This document shows positions 30,392 through 38,250 of a DNA stretch of 64,000 nt, piece after piece. The DNA is from Thermococcus sp. JdFR-02. Lineage in GTDB: Archaea > Methanobacteriota_B > Thermococci > Thermococcales > Thermococcaceae. The notes under the pieces were generated by a model that searched no databases, was not told where the DNA came from, and saw nothing but the letters and a program-made list of their open reading frames with translations. The stretch spans positions 186,001 to 250,000 of the forward strand of contig MTLP01000042.1 of the NCBI GenBank assembly GCA_002009975.1. Reading direction: 5' to 3'. The position numbers and the translations under genes were made by a program. Position 1 is the first letter of the stretch. Each line of letters opens with the position of its first letter.

Positions 30392-31135
30392 CTATTTTTG
30401 GATCAGGTTTAACAATTTCTCTACAGCTTCATTCACATCTTTTGCATCTCTTCCTATCATCACAAAGCCAAACTCTTTTCCATAAGCTTTTTTGTAATTT
30501 TCCACTAAAAGACCATCGTTCACCGTGTCACCGATATAAACTCCTCTTTCTCCTTTAACCAGATGCCAAAGAGCTTTTGGATCTGGTTTAACATAAAGCT
30601 CTCTTGTAACTGCACTTTCAAAGTGGAAGCCAATGAGTTCTTCAGCTAATTTAAGCTCAAGTTTGTTCCTTCCAGTTATAACACCAAGCTTAAACTTTTC
30701 ATTTGCTCTTTCCAAGAGCTCACTCTTAACTATCGGCTTCTCTTTTTTCCAAAGTCCATCAAATTGAAAAGCACTCTCTTCATAGTATCCACCTAAATAA
30801 AAGGTATTAAAAACTCTCTCAATTTCTTCTGACTTAACAATAATCCCAAATTTTTCTCTAACCCACTTAATCCCCTCTCCCTCTGGAAAGCTCTCAACAA
30901 AATCACTTAACTTTCCATTTAAAGCACCAGATATTAACGCTTCACTAACTTTAAAATCGTCTCCAAAAGCGCCTTTTCTTCTCAATACCCTTATTAACTC
31001 TAAGTCAACTTCAATGTTTTTACCAAGCTTTTTTAGAAAATACTCCACCGTGAGCTTTGTTGCTAAGTCATAGCTCTCAGTAACGTCAATCAAAACGCCG
31101 TCAACATCAAAGATTATCCATTTTAGCTTTTTCAT
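30392..31135 (-). CDS. HAD-family phosphatase, probable histidinol-phosphate phosphatase
   Basis: 247 residues. HAD motif I is WIIFDVDGVLIDVTESY (residues 6-22, DxD intact), motif II LGVITGRNKLE near 150, and motif IV YIGDTVNDGLL near 198. It is the last gene of the histidine operon and overlaps hisC by one base. Histidinol phosphatase is the only his step otherwise missing here, and a DDDD (HAD) superfamily enzyme has been shown to do this in Thermococcus onnurineus, so that is the most likely role. The gene converges on the ATPase gene with 12 bases between them. Confidence 0.85.
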   Translation of the reverse strand: MKKLKWIIFDVDGVLIDVTESYDLATKLTVEYFLKKLGKNIEVDLELIRVLRRKGAFGDDFKVSEALISGALNGKLSDFVESFPEGEGIKWVREKFGIIVKSEEIERVFNTFYLGGYYEESAFQFDGLWKKEKPIVKSELLERANEKFKLGVITGRNKLELKLAEELIGFHFESAVTRELYVKPDPKALWHLVKGERGVYIGDTVNDGLLVENYKKAYGKEFGFVMIGRDAKDVNEAVEKLLNLIQK

Positions 31136-32139
31136 TATTTGACCCCCAAAAACTCGTTCAATGCTTTAATCAACTCATTATTTTCCTCCCTTTTACCAAT
31201 GGTAACCCTTATGTGATTAGACAATCTACCGCTCAGATTTCTCACAACTATACCCTTCTCAAGCAGAAACTCGTAAGCGTTGAGCTTCATGAGTAAAAAG
31301 TTGGCTTCACTTGGATAAACATAATCTTTGAACTCCTTGTAAATCCTATCTCTTTCTTTAATTATGTAATTAATGTTTTGTTTAATTACATCATAATGGT
31401 CAAGCATAAGCTCTGCTATCTTCATTGAAAGGGCATTTAGGCTGAAAGGCGACTTAATGCGCAAAAGATAGTCTATTATTTCCTCACTTGCAACAGCATA
31501 GCCAACTCTAATTCCAGCTAATCCAAAAGCCTTTGAAAAAGTTCTCAAAATGACTAAGTTCTCATATTCATTAACTAAATCCACATTACTTCCTTTCGCA
31601 AACTCTATGTATGCTTCATCTAAAATCACTGGAGCGCCGGTTTCAAGGACACTTATTATCTTTTCTCTCTCTTGAGTGTTACCTGTGGGATTGTTTGGTG
31701 AGCAGATAAAGATAGCTTTCGCCTTTTCCGCATAATCTTCAACGTTCTGCAGTTTAAAATTTTCATCTAATGGGACATCAACGAGTTTAATTCCTTCAAG
31801 CTTTGCGTAGAAGTTGTACATTCCAAAGGTTGGAGAGCTTATAACTATGTGTTCTCCTTCAAAGAGCTTTAGGAGATAGGAGATAAGCTCATCGCTCCCA
31901 TTTCCAACGATTATATTCTCTTTTTCAAATCCCAAAAACTCTGCTATTCTTTCCCTTAGAGGATCTGCGGTTATGTGTGGATAGCGGTTTAGAGGTATTT
32001 TCTTCACTTCCTCGAAAATTTCATCTTTAATCTCTTCGGGTAAATCAAAAGGGCTTTCATTCTTATCAAGCCAAATTTTGTAGTTTCCTTCAACCACTTT
32101 ATAGGGCTTGAAGGCTTTAATTATCTCCTCAATCCTCAC
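31135..32139 (-). CDS. hisC: histidinol-phosphate aminotransferase
   Basis: 334 residues. PLP enzyme converting imidazole acetol phosphate to histidinol phosphate. [10 protein letters not shown]-type opening ([14 protein letters not shown] near residue 23), [11 protein letters not shown] near 146, ILDEAYIEF near 173 and the PLP lysine in [18 protein letters not shown] near 203 are intact. It overlaps hisIE by four bases. Confidence 0.95.
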
Positions 32140-32768
32140 TTTCTACGCCCCCTAAGCTCTTTCATAACCTCGCTTAGGCTTATTTCATTATAAGCGAGCA
32201 AAACTAAGAGGTGATAGAGTAAATCAGCAGTTTCATAGATTATTCTTTCTCTTTCTTCAGCGACCAAAACTTCTACTGCTTCTTCCCCAAATTTCTTGTA
32301 TATCTTTTCTTTCCCCTCTTTGAAAAGCTTTGAAGTGTAGGAACCTTCTTTTGGATTTTCTTTGCGCTGCTTTATGACCTCCTCAAGCTCCCTCAAAACT
32401 GTCAATGAGTAGTCAATCCCCCCAACTTCCCTCTCTAGCTCTCCTAATTTCCTGTAAAAGCAGCTCCTATTGCCGGTGTGGCAAGCTACACCAACTTGCT
32501 CAACTATTAAAAGCAACGCATCACTGTCGCAGTCTATCTTTATCTCTTTAACTTTTTGAACGTTCCCGCTAACCTCGCCCTTCATCCTAATTCTCTTTTG
32601 ACTCCTTGAATAATAATGTGCATAACCTGTCTCTAAAGTTTTTCTCAGCGCTTCCTCATTCATATAAGCCAAAGTCAAAACTTCTCCATCAACGCTCTGC
32701 ACAATAACCGGAACTATTTCGCTTTTCTCCCAGTTGACCTGCTTTATAAGCTCATTCAAGTCTGACAT
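32136..32768 (-). CDS. hisIE: bifunctional phosphoribosyl-AMP cyclohydrolase / phosphoribosyl-ATP pyrophosphatase
   Basis: 210 residues. The HisI domain (about 1-115) has metal ligands in [21 protein letters not shown] and [10 protein letters not shown]; the HisE domain (about 120-205) is a MazG-like helical fold with [10 protein letters not shown]. It does the second and third steps of the pathway. It overlaps both hisF (17 bases) and hisC (4 bases). Confidence 0.96.
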
Positions 32769-33507
32769 TCACACCCCTCCTCGCTAAATACTCCTTAAGC
32801 TCTCTAACGGTGTACTTTCCATAGTGAAAGATTGATGCAGCTAAAGCCGCGCTTGCACCAATTTCAAATGCATCATAGAAGTGTTCTGGACTTCCAGCAC
32901 CTCCAGAGGCAATAACGGGAATGTCAACAGCCTCGACTATTGCTTTAGTTAGGGGTATGTCAAAGCCCTCCTGCGTTCCATCCGTGTCCATAGAAGTGAG
33001 CAAAATCTCACCAGCTCCCAAACATTCGACCTCTTTAGCCCACTCTATTGCATCTATCCCTCTCGCTTTTCTTCCTCCGTGAGTATAAACCTCCCAAAAC
33101 TTCCCATTCCATTTAGCATCTATCGCTATTACTAAATTCGCACTCCCAACAACTTTTGCCGCTTCACTTACGAGTTTTGGATTGTCAACAGCCGCCGTGT
33201 TGAGGAAAACCTTATCGGCACCGCTCTTTATTATTTCTCTAATCTCCTCAACGCTCTTAATCCCCCCACCAACCGTGAAGGGAACGTAAATCTCCTCAGC
33301 TATCCTCTTTACCAAATCGAGGAGAATTTGCCTCTTTTCGTAAGATGCAGTAATGTCGAGGAAAACTATCTCGTCTATCCCTTCCTCCTCATAGCGCTTT
33401 GCCAGCTCTATTGGGTCTCCGGCATCTCTGATATTCTGAAACTTTATTCCCTTTACAACTCTCCCCTCTTTTATGTCCAAGGCAGCGATAATCCTCTTAG
33501 CGAGCAT
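32752..33507 (-). CDS. hisF: imidazole glycerol phosphate synthase, cyclase subunit
   Basis: 251 residues. TIM barrel that uses ammonia from HisH to form imidazole glycerol phosphate and [23 protein letters not shown] near residue 9, [11 protein letters not shown] near 80, and [12 protein letters not shown] near 220 are typical; catalytic Asp residues in LDIKEG and [11 protein letters not shown] are present. ATG 33507 has GGAGGT six bases before it; the adjacent GTG 33510 is too close to that site. Confidence 0.96.
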
Positions 33508-34190
33508 CACAATACCTCCAAAATCTCTTCTAAGCTTATTTTCTCCTCATAGAGAGCTTTTCCAACTATTGCTCCAGAGAACCCAATTTCTTTGAGCTTT
33601 AGGATATCTTCAACGCTTGAGACCCCACCAGCATAGATGAACTCCTCTCTGCCCCAAAAGCGCTCTATCTTTTCAATTCCCGTCAATGTGCCGTCCTTTT
33701 CTATTGCCGTGTAAATGAACCTATTAACGTACTTTTTGAGCATCTCGTAAGCCTCTTCAACGGTTATAGAGCTCTCCTCCTCCCAGCCTTTTACAGCTAT
33801 CCTCCCGCCTTTAGCATCTAAACTTACAGTTATCCCTTCAAAATCCTGCGTTATTTTTTCTAAAAACTCCAAATCAAAGGCTTTTGTGCCTATTATGACG
33901 TTCTCAACTCCAATTGAGTAGGCTTTCGCTATGCTCCCATAGTCCCTAAAGCCTCCACCTACCTGAACCTTCAGCCCCGTCTCCTCTATTATTCTCCTCA
34001 CGACGTCGAGGTTCTTTGGCTTTCCTTCAAAGGCCCCATCTAAGTCAACAACGTGTATTTTATCGAGAAGCTTGGCAAAATCCTTAGCTATCTCTACTGG
34101 ATCTCCATAAACTTTTATGCTCTCTTTTTTACCCTTATAGAGCCTCACAGCTTTCCCACTCATTAAATCTATTGCAGGGTAAATCCTCAT
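33507..34190 (-). CDS. hisA: phosphoribosylformimino-5-aminoimidazole carboxamide ribotide isomerase
   Basis: 227 residues. TIM-barrel isomerase; [20 protein letters not shown] (residues 5-24) with catalytic Asp, [11 protein letters not shown] near 77 and the second Asp region [13 protein letters not shown] near 160. It is homologous to the adjacent hisF. One base separates it from hisH. Confidence 0.95.
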
Positions 34191-34191
34191 C

Positions 34192-34779
34192 TCACAGCCT
34201 CCTGAAGTTTTCTAAAAGCCTCAACCCATTTTTGCTCGACTTTTCTGGGTGAAACTGAACTCCAAAGACGTTATCTTTGCAAACTGCTGAAGGAAATACT
34301 ACTTTCTTCCCCTTTGACTCATAATCCGTTACAGCTGCAATCACTTCTTTGTCTTGAGGATTTACGTAGTAGGAGTGCACGAAGTAGAAGTAGCTCCCGT
34401 TCTTGATTCCATCAAAGAGTGGGCACTCTTTAGCAGGAAAAACTTGATTCCAGCCTATGTGAGGGACTCTAACACCTTTAAACTTCACTACATTGCCTTT
34501 AAAGACTTCTAAGCCTTTCCCTTCGCTTTCTTCACTACACTCAAACAAAAGCTGCATCCCCAAGCATATCCCGAGGAATGGTTTTCCTTCATTGATCGCA
34601 TCTAAGATCGTTCCTTTTAGAGGCTCAAGCCTTTTCATCACTGCTCCAAAGTTCCCTACCCCTGGGAGCACAATTTTATCAGCTCTCTCAATCTCATAGG
34701 GGTCACTCGTGATTATTCCACCCAAGGCTTTTCTAACATTTGCCAAGTTCCCAATCCCTAAATCAACTATTGCTATCAT
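34192..34779 (-). CDS. hisH: imidazole glycerol phosphate synthase, glutaminase subunit
   Basis: 195 residues. Class I glutamine amidotransferase: catalytic Cys in PFLGICLGMQLLFE near residue 74 and His-Glu in GVQFHPEKSSKNGL near 174. Supplies ammonia to HisF. It abuts hisB with no gap. Confidence 0.96.
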   Translation of the reverse strand: MIAIVDLGIGNLANVRKALGGIITSDPYEIERADKIVLPGVGNFGAVMKRLEPLKGTILDAINEGKPFLGICLGMQLLFECSEESEGKGLEVFKGNVVKFKGVRVPHIGWNQVFPAKECPLFDGIKNGSYFYFVHSYYVNPQDKEVIAAVTDYESKGKKVVFPSAVCKDNVFGVQFHPEKSSKNGLRLLENFRRL

Positions 34780-35310
34780 TCACAGCACCCCTTTTGTGCT
34801 TTCCAAACGCTCGCTCTCTTCCAAAGCCTTTCTTAAAGCGACGCCGAGTCCTTTAAATGCCGCCTCAATGACGTGGTGGGCATTAACTCCGCTCAGCTGC
34901 TTCACGTGAATTGTAGCATTTAGTGTCCTCGCTAAAGCCCAGAGAAACTCCCTAACTAAAGTGAGCTCAAATCCCTCTTCGCTCTCTTTGAAATCAAGCT
35001 CGAGGTTTAAGTAAGGTCTCGAGATATCTACGGCAACCAAGACTAATGCATCGTCCATTGGCATTATCGCATTCCCAAAGCGTGCTATTTTCTTGCCCTT
35101 AATTTTCCCCCTAAGCTCTTCTCCAAGTGTAATAGCTAAGTCTTCCCATAAGTGATGCCTCAAATCCCATTTCGCTTTGACATTAGCCTTCTCTTGCATG
35201 TAAAAGAACAAAGCAGTAAGGAGGTGGTCTAATACCCTATCTCCAGTATTTATCTCCCCTTCAACGCCAATTTCGACAATTATATCAACTTCCTTAGTTT
35301 TTCTTCTCAT
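34780..35310 (-). CDS. hisB: imidazoleglycerol-phosphate dehydratase
   Basis: 176 residues, monofunctional (no fused phosphatase). The manganese-binding repeats are [15 protein letters not shown] near residue 50 and [15 protein letters not shown] near 145. The lack of a phosphatase domain fits a separate HAD phosphatase at the operon end. It overlaps hisD by four bases. Confidence 0.95.
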
Positions 35311-36434
35311 CTTCTTACCTCCAGAGCTTTTTTGTGGAGTTCTAACCCCTCAATCTCCGCTAAGCGAATTCCCAAATATCTTTCACTCAAGAACTCCTCT
35401 CTGCTGACGTAGGCTAAGCTAATTCTTTTCATAAAGTCCATAACCGTTAAAACCGAGCTGAATTTAGCCGCTCCACCAGTTGGAAGGACGTGATTGACTC
35501 CCAAGAAGTAATCCGCTGCTGGGACTGGTGTATACTCTCCCAAATAAATCGCCCCAGCATTTTCGATTAAGTCCACAAGCTTTAGAGGCTCTTTTGTGAG
35601 TATCTCCAAGTGCTCTGGAGCAATCTCATTGACCTTTTCCACACACTCCTCTAAGCTTTTGCACAAGACAACCTTAATGCCTTCCTTGTTACAATATTCT
35701 GCTAACTCTTTTGAAGTCGTGAGGAGCCAAGCCTTTGAGTCTTTCCCGTGCTCTAATTGGGAGAGCAGATCAGCCAAGACATAATCTTTATTTGCACTTT
35801 CATCAGCTATTACTGCTATCTCCGAAGGACCAGCTAAGCTGTCAATCCCAACAACGCCAAAAACCTGTCTCTTCGCTTCATTCACGAACTTGTTCCCAGG
35901 ACCAAAGATTTTGTCCACTTTCTTCATCCCAATGCCATAAGCCATTGCCCCAATTGCTTGGATTCCACCGAGCTTGTGGATCTCTTTAATATCGAGGAGC
36001 TTTGCAACGTAGAGGATATAGGGATTAATTTTTCCTTCTTTTGGTGGCGTAGTAACGACTATCTCCTTAACGCCAGCTATCTTTGCTGGAACCCCAACCA
36101 TTATGAGCGTTGAGGGGAGAGGCTTTCCTCCCGGAACGTAGATACCAATTCTTCTAATCGGCTTATAGATTATCCCGTAAAGCGATGCGTTCTTTATGTA
36201 GAGCTTATCATTTTCAAGCTGTCTTTCGTGGTACTCCTTAACGCGCTCGATAATTATTTGAATTATCTTTTTGTCCTCTTTTGGAATCAGTTTCTCAGCC
36301 TTTTCGAATTCTTCTTCTTTAACTAAAAACTCCCCCTCATAGTTATCAAACTTCTTTGAGTACTCCCTAAGAGCTTTAACTCCCCTAAACTTTATATCAT
36401 CTAAGATTTCTCTAACATAACTCTCTAACTTCAT
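35307..36434 (-). CDS. hisD: histidinol dehydrogenase
   Basis: 375 residues, a little shorter than the bacterial norm of about 430. Oxidises histidinol to histidine via the aldehyde. [11 protein letters not shown] near residue 101, [17 protein letters not shown] near 178 and [16 protein letters not shown] near 197 are signature segments; zinc and catalytic residues in [12 protein letters not shown] and EIAPEHLEI are present. Abuts hisG with one-base overlap. Confidence 0.96.
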
Positions 36435-37051
36435 TACAACCCCTCCCTAATGACCTTCTTAATCCTCAAAACCAAGTCATTGATCTCTTCAAACTTCATC
36501 TTTTGGGAAATTCTATTAACCAAAAGCAGAGCAGAGACATCCATTATTTTTTCAGCTTCAACTAAGCCATTAGCCCTTAGAGTGTTTCCAGTTTCAACTA
36601 CATCAACTATCGCATCAGCTATTCCAACTTTTGGAGCCAATTCTATAGCCCCACTAAGCTTTATTATCTCAACTTCAACTCCTTTGCTTTCAAAGAACTT
36701 TTTTGTTAGGTTTGTGTATTTTGTGGCAATTCTAAAGCCCTCCATCTCCTCGACATCAGTTATGCTTTCTTTGGGCATCGCTAAACTTAGCCTGCACTTT
36801 CCAAAGGGCAATTCAAGAGGAACAAAGACATCGCTCTCTCGCTCTTCTACAACATCACTTCCTGAAATCCCGACATCTATACCATGCTCTACATAAACTG
36901 GAACATCAAACGCCCTTGCGAGTAAGAGCTCATATCTTCCGTTTTTCACAATCAACTCTCTATTCTCTGGTGACTTAAGTCCAATTCCAGCTTTGGTAAG
37001 AATTTCAAGCGAACCTTGGAAAAGCCTGCCTTTTGGTAAAACAATCCTCAT
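36434..37051 (-). CDS. hisG: ATP phosphoribosyltransferase, short form
   Basis: 205 residues, lacking the C-terminal regulatory ACT-like domain of long HisG. Catalyses the first committed step. [16 protein letters not shown] opens the protein and [22 protein letters not shown] near residue 151 is the PRPP-binding loop. Short HisG needs a HisZ partner, and a HisRS-like gene lies directly upstream, overlapping by four bases. Confidence 0.95.
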
Positions 37052-37938
37052 TCTTTCACCTCCACTGGAATTCCAAGATTTACGAGTTCTTTTGCAAGTT
37101 TATATACCTCTTTAAGCTCTCCTCTGATTGTTTTACGATTCTTTTCGATTTTTCCACTGTAGAGCTTAGATAGGACGTTTAAATCAAAGGCAAAGCCAAA
37201 GGCATCTATTCCATTGAATTTGTATTCTCCGCCACCTCCAAGTGGATAGCCAAGCTTTGGAGAATAGATTTCAAAGATAATGTCGCTGTAATAGGGCAAC
37301 GGTCTAATAGTCCCAAAATCTATGAAAATTCTATCATCACCCAGCGCTTCTACAATCAGGTTAAGCTTTTCATAATCGCTCTTCTTCCCTCTAAAGTTGA
37401 AGAGACGCCAAAGCTCTTCTTTTTTCTCTTCGCTAATTGGGAGTCTTTCAATTATCTCAAAGTTTCTTTTAGCCAAAGCTCTAAAGATTTCCTCTCTAAA
37501 CTCTTCAATCCCCTTAATTGCATTCTCCCAAACCTTCAAGCTTCCAATGTCGATGTAAAACTCTTTAATCCCAAGAGCTTCAAGTGAAGTTATAACGGTC
37601 ATTAAGACCTCAACTTGCATCCAAAGGTCTTTTCCTCCGATAAATTCAACTCCTGCCTGCCATTTCCCTTTAACTCCACCGTTTAGCACTTCACTTATGT
37701 AAAAGAGCTTTAGTCTTCTTGGCTCTTTTAGATTCACCAATATTTGCGATGTTAAATCAGGTTTTATTACGTAGAAGCTGTTGTTGTAAGCAAATTTTGT
37801 GCCCTTCCTAAGACTCTCCCTGTATTCTTCAACCGTCGGTAGGAAAATCTCTTTATATCCCCAAAGCTCAAATGTTCGCCTTAAATATTTTGTAATATCT
37901 GCTAAGCGTTCTGATTCGGAAAATACATCCTTTTTCAC
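37048..37938 (-). CDS. hisZ: HisRS-like regulatory subunit of ATP phosphoribosyltransferase
   Basis: 296 residues. Resembles the catalytic core of histidyl-tRNA synthetase ([31 protein letters not shown] like class II motif 1; [20 protein letters not shown] like motif 3) without the anticodon domain, as in HisZ. It binds histidine and activates and controls short HisG. First structural gene of the operon; GTG 37938 has GGAGGGA (37944-37950) before it. A 312-base upstream region holds a leader peptide ORF, terminator-like stem and promoter. Confidence 0.9.
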
Positions 37939-37950
37939 AATAGTCCCTCC

Positions 37951-37972: not shown

Positions 37973-38016
37973 CTCTAATTGAAATGCAATCTAACAAGTC
38001 AATGATGCCAGAATAG

Positions 38017-38121
38017 TCAATGATGATGATGGTAGTAACTCACCGCTAAGCTTGAAGAAGAAAAGTTTTCTCTAATTATGCTCTCGTTGTATCCTGTTTT
38101 TATTCTTCCCTCTTTCATCAT
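38017..38121 (-). CDS. candidate his operon leader peptide ending in four histidines
   Basis: 34 residues, too short for usual gene calling. Starts with tandem ATGs four bases after GGTGA, and ends SYYHHHH followed at once by TGA; the four His codons are all CAT at 38031-38020. It lies between a well-formed promoter and hisZ, with its ribosome site at the very start of the predicted mRNA. The arrangement matches bacterial his leader peptides, where ribosome stalling at His codons when charged histidyl-tRNA is short controls downstream transcription. The middle has four serines and no other feature. The role as an attenuator is inference; the coding pattern itself is seen directly. Confidence 0.75.
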   Translation of the reverse strand: MMKEGRIKTGYNESIIRENFSSSSLAVSYYHHHH

Positions 38122-38250
38122 AACCTCACCTAAGGGCAAAGAATCGCAAGGGGTATATAAAGTTATCCCTAATTATTCTGGAATATTAACATCAACTCAA
38201 AAAAATTTTGGAGGAAATTTGGATAAATGTTAAATTGGAAGAGCTTAATT

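Follow-up and report, generated by a model that had tools for sequence, protein, structure and literature searches.

A short open reading frame (ORF) ending in tandem histidine codons precedes the his operon of Thermococcus sp. JdFR-02, and a counterpart lies upstream of every hisZ gene that we found in the Thermococcaceae. This leader is very likely translated and His-tRNA-sensing, and it points to a type of sensor so far known only from bacteria. The leader peptide gene probably acts in cis on the his operon. When stalled on the His codons, a ribosome would cover a short linear element, CUNUUCU, and exposure of that element would lower expression. A conserved hairpin appears to play no part in the switch.

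The his Operon and Its Leader

The DNA that we analyzed (hereafter the window) is a stretch of 64,000 nt from Thermococcus sp. JdFR-02 (GCA_002009975.1, contig MTLP01000042.1, positions 186,001–250,000). Coordinates are those of the window, and all of the features located below are on the minus strand. The his promoter has the TATA box TTTATATA (38154–38161), from whose position a transcription start at about 38130 is predicted. The ribosome site of the leader ORF, GGTGAGG (38124–38130), sits at this predicted 5′ end of the mRNA and fits the Thermococcus consensus GGDGRD (PMC4247193). The ORF itself (38017–38121, ATG at 38121) has 34 codons and encodes MMKEGRIKTGYNESIIRENFSSSSLAVSYYHHHH; the peptide ends in YYHHHH, directly before a TGA stop at 38019–38017. 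Its position and frame are orthologous at all 47 hisZ loci of the family. The presumed sensor is the run of four tandem CAT codons at 38020–38031. Within the leader, 7 nt 5′ of the first His codon, is an SD-like GGTGAG (38039–38044) of moderate conservation, with about 0.8–1.1 bits per position for GGTGA across loci. This internal site stands 7 nt before the His run in many clades and could slow a ribosome that has a His codon in its P site.

Immediately 3′ of the leader stop is the linear element CTATTCTGG (38008–38016). It is followed, in the leader frame, by a copied CATCATTGA (37999–38007), which was not seen at the same position in the other hisZ loci inspected. Past the leader TGA the frame of the window reads CTA TTC TGG CAT CAT TGA, and readthrough would reach two further His codons. 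In eukaryotes a UGA with CUN behind it is a leaky stop, and this combination is retained at the leader stop in most TGA-type clades.

The leader stop is 78 nt from the GTG of hisZ, with no other gene in the gap. hisZ (ATP phosphoribosyltransferase regulatory subunit; 37048–37938, GTG at 37938) is the first structural gene of the operon and has the ribosome site GGAGGG (37945–37950). The best NCBIfam match of its product is TIGR00443, at 125 bits, below the curated cut-off of 271.65. The genes that follow, hisG, hisD, hisB, hisH, hisA, hisF, hisIE and hisC (31135–37051), match NCBIfam models above curated cut-offs, and the operon downstream of the leader is complete (hisZ-G-D-B-H-A-F-IE-C). The preliminary description of this DNA had noted the promoter, the GGTGAGG site, the 34-codon ORF ending in YYHHHH, the spacing to hisZ and the gene-free gap, and all of these details, which can be read from the sequence, are correct. 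HisZ of the window contains no histidine at all. The same holds for most of the relatives checked (none in 9 of 15, with a maximum of 3), as though the leading product of the operon were kept free of the amino acid in short supply.

Conservation across the Thermococcaceae

We searched 94 Thermococcaceae genomes and found HisZ in 46, which together with one further partial gene gave 47 loci. These were sorted by eye into 18 sequence clades, a grouping that is not a tree. Upstream of each of the 47 is a short ORF that closes, or nearly closes, with two to four tandem His codons. The commonest leader end is VSYCHHH followed by the stop; VSYRHH, VSLHH, HHHLF, HHPF and FHHI are variants. The distance from leader stop to hisZ is 24–80 nt, mostly 60–80 nt, with three loci (L035, L037, and L038) at the 24-nt minimum. 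In locus L028 the TGA after the His run has become TGC, which lengthens the leader by six codons through CTCTTC.

An SD-led ATG is found in the frame of the His run at 45/47 loci, and in the other two frames at 0/47 and 1/47. A TATA-like box lies 30–50 nt 5′ of the leader ATG in 46/47 loci and 65 nt from it in L031. As in attenuators generally, a short ORF stands between promoter and operon (47/47), and the tandem cognate codons are kept while the rest varies. Comparison with relatives had been called for in the preliminary description, a lack of conservation counting against its reading. The short ORF and His run are kept in all 47 loci, and the ribosome site and promoter in nearly all, while the body varies; the presence of leader and His run at every locus rules out a lack of conservation.

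Tandem His codons at the end of a short ORF are uncommon elsewhere. Among about 1,500 SD-led short ORFs taken as a control, six outside the window (0.4%) carry HH among their six C-terminal residues; this rate is rough, as many control loci are from genomes of the same family and some overlap. A 33-nt core motif, allowing up to three mismatches, occurs in 13 of the 94 genomes, every time at the his leader and never twice per genome. The motif is absent from those of the 94 genomes that have no his operon, and a reversed control pattern gave 0 matches. We did not find a His leader at the distant HisZ/HisRS-like loci of Methanomethylicota, Jordarchaeum, Bathyarchaeota, and Clostridium.

Selection on the Leader

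Close pairs of loci differ in the leader body by 38, 38, and 43 substitutions at codon positions 1, 2, and 3, which is no position bias, and by 24 synonymous and 73 non-synonymous codons. The information content of the body is 0.17 bits per site with clades weighted equally. The peptide body is thus free to change, but its reading frame is retained. The 14 nt immediately 5′ of the His run carry 0.84 bits and the His run itself up to 2.0. Leader His codons are CAT in 115 cases and CAC in 4 (47 loci); the long open frames of the same loci, some of which are possibly not genes, use CAT 226 times and CAC 393 times. Selection has preserved the His codons of this leader ORF ahead of the his operon, and therefore their translation is very probably the sensor.

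Alternatively, the peptide itself could be the sensor. In a TnaC-like nascent-chain arrest peptide, the VSYCHHH end would bind free histidine or a metal, and the final residues V-S-x-x-H-H are the best-conserved part of the leader. However, conservation does not extend to further residues of a long arrest motif, and a metal site is not kept, since other clades have Arg, Tyr, or Leu in place of the Cys and the L033 type is one residue short. We consider such a sensor extremely unlikely.

Just past the His run is the element CTNTTCT. Its TTCT is present in every clade, 9–18 nt from the start of the His run, and the frame of the element is constant. It stands 3′ of the TGA in some clades and before the stop in others, where it is read as xF-stop. 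The leader stop thus shifts between clades (HHH-stop or HH(H)xF-stop), while CTNTTCT holds its place and frame. The TTC of the element never becomes TTT, and the distance from the His run to CTNTTCT changes by multiples of three. The invariant TTC and the conservation beyond codons would also be consistent with a site on RNA or DNA to which a protein binds. In one rival reading, the conserved stretch is untranslated, either a DNA operator or an RNA element that a protein or histidine binds, and the ORF is incidental. This would suit conservation that extends past the ORF (CTNTTCTG) and a codon choice that is near fixed (CAT, TTC). We regard this as very unlikely, however, in view of the in-frame SD and ATG (45/47, against 0 and 1 in the other frames), a His run that differs by whole codons (2, 3, or 4) and includes synonymous CAC, and indels in multiples of three before CTNTTCT.

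Proposed Mechanism

The translated leader that we favor would work as follows. A ribosome would load onto the his mRNA at its 5′ end, read about 25–35 codons of mostly irrelevant sequence and reach the two to four His codons. If charged His-tRNA is scarce, it would stall on them. A ribosome covers about 12–15 nt ahead of its decoding site, and CUNUUCU starts 9–18 nt past the first His codon, a geometry in which the stalled ribosome would be expected to hide the element. With ample histidine the ribosome would terminate at the adjacent stop and depart, exposing CUNUUCU. The exposed element would lower his expression, and starvation would hence raise it. Candidate outputs of the exposed element are premature termination (e.g., by FttA), hindered initiation at hisZ, or decay of the mRNA. 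It is from conservation and geometry that we infer this output step.

RNA Structure, Sequestration and Reinitiation

In a classical transcription attenuator, such as that of enteric hisL, the leader ribosome toggles between a terminator and an antiterminator hairpin. Tandem cognate codons do precede the operon, and coupling of transcription and translation has been reported in archaea (PMC8116511, PMC11616081). However, we found no conserved RNA structure between the His run and hisZ, where the folding energy is no different from that of dinucleotide shuffles (the mean of the 18 clade means is z +0.24). No T-run is conserved in the leader–hisZ region of the 47 loci, the longest run being 1–5 nt, and the His_leader family of Rfam (RF00514) gave no match even at an E-value of 5. 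The 24-nt gaps in L035, L037, and L038 also argue against a hairpin switch, which we judge highly unlikely. The preliminary description had proposed a translation-based attenuator of the his operon, with hisL as the precedent. The conserved leader ORF with its selected His codons bears out the first part; a hisL-type terminator switch, with no conserved structure, no kept T-run and gaps as short as 24 nt, is not borne out. Two other Rfam candidates were rejected: the C/D box sRNA sR44 (RF01129), which scored 16.8 bits against a gathering threshold of 45 and lies on the opposite strand, and sR19, for which there was a sub-threshold match alone.

Translational attenuation in the style of Bacillus subtilis rtpLP-rtpA or of ermC would have the end of the leader pair with the hisZ ribosome site until a stalled ribosome opens it. 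Such pairing is predicted in some clades and is strong in two. In the clade of L016–L020, L025, L027, L029, and L031, CAUUGACUCUUCU at the leader end can form 13 contiguous pairs with GGAGGGGUUAGUG, and a like pairing is predicted in L003, L006, L009, and L010. The rare CAC codons of L037, L045, and L046 also sit in a stretch able to pair with the ribosome site. On the other hand, when partners were swapped between clades, own pairs were not better than the swaps (0.57–0.91 of permutations were at least as good), and only in 13/47 loci did masking of the His codons open the hisZ site by more than 0.5 kcal/mol. The pairing in the window, at -5.0 kcal/mol, is the weakest of all loci. With a negative swap test and a weak masking test, we rejected SD sequestration as a family-wide switch, and translational attenuation of this kind seems unlikely overall. 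Since folding parameters are unreliable at 80–100°C, sequestration may still operate in particular lineages.

Termination at the leader stop followed by reinitiation at hisZ was also considered. Translational coupling is reported to fade past 30–40 nt (PMC12548453). Most gaps in our loci (60–80 nt) exceed this distance, and we therefore judge reinitiation unlikely as a general output.

A Possible Role for FttA

With no RNA structure apparent, a switch of another kind is suggested, one linked to the question of how archaeal ribosomes shield nascent RNA from FttA. FttA terminates transcription in Thermococcus, and the authors of its structure hypothesize that coupled ribosomes and FttA are mutually exclusive (PMC11616081). 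Polarity in archaea has been attributed to FttA (PMC12548453). FttA would be a plausible partner of CTNTTCT. We tentatively suggest a structure-independent form of attenuation, in which a ribosome stalled on cognate codons hides CUNUUCU and so keeps a factor for termination or decay, such as FttA, from being recruited; an analogous device with other codons might control the ilv operon. If true, this would give archaea their first example of ribosome-mediated attenuation, in a form suited to temperatures that weaken RNA hairpins. The family is genetically tractable, and with tandem cognate codons ahead of each of the his operons examined, the question is testable by a single reporter experiment.

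Comparison with Bacterial Leaders

Leader-peptide attenuation is a textbook bacterial mechanism. Enterobacterial hisL (Rfam RF00514) and the Thermococcaceae leader share a tandem-His leader ORF right before the his operon. The Thermococcaceae leader differs in that it has an archaeal promoter and two to four His codons, and lacks terminator/antiterminator hairpins and Rfam or Pfam matches (the leader peptides of the his operons have no match in Pfam). In B. subtilis rtpLP-rtpA a leader peptide also carries tandem cognate codons, and the position of the ribosome governs initiation at the next gene. By contrast, sequestration of the ribosome site is only lineage-specific in the Thermococcaceae his leaders, and the test of co-evolution failed. 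The rtpLP-rtpA (anti-TRAP) work is credited to Chen and Yanofsky (2004) in a passage of PMC4027176. The sensor of the his leader is thus like that of bacterial leader-peptide attenuators, but the hallmarks tested for hisL attenuators and, across the family, those tested for rtpLP/erm attenuators are absent.

A 2014 transcriptome study of T. kodakarensis stated that regulation by attenuators or riboswitches in Archaea was without direct experimental support (PMC4247193), and a review of archaeal coupling does not mention attenuation (PMC8116511). We found no description of a leader peptide for an archaeal amino-acid operon in the open literature, a search that leaves most subscription journals outside and priority unproven.

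Candidate Leaders at ilvB, and Other Operons

A short ORF with a run of Ile, Leu and Val codons lies directly 5′ of ilvB in five of six complete Thermococcaceae loci (L210–L214; first noticed in L165–L168). The carriers are all four Pyrococcus-like loci and one Thermococcus-like locus; one of the six complete loci is without it. These ORFs end, before the stop, in VILVIIIIIIRA, ILILLVIIIIIILI, LLVLLSIIIGLIILL, VLLLLILIIIGLIILL, and VIIGIIIL, and 13–17 of the last 20 residues are Ile, Leu, or Val. They are unannotated, and their ribosome sites are weaker than those of the his leaders. Like E. coli ilvL and the ilvB leader of Corynebacterium glutamicum, they are rich in Ile, Leu, and Val near the stop; unlike the bacterial leaders, they are archaeal, and their N-terminal parts are mutually unrelated. 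A rival reading of the ilvB short ORF is a small membrane peptide. Pfam matches of the ilv leaders were at chance level only and were set aside.

We found no Trp-rich leader at the trp operon and no evident leader at thrC. No obvious leader was seen among the few lys/arg and aro loci inspected by eye. Because the trp and thr operons are without such a leader, the device is not general. In a single genome (L214), a perfect inverted repeat, CCCGGC-CAA-GCCGGG, lies 3′ of the ilv leader stop.
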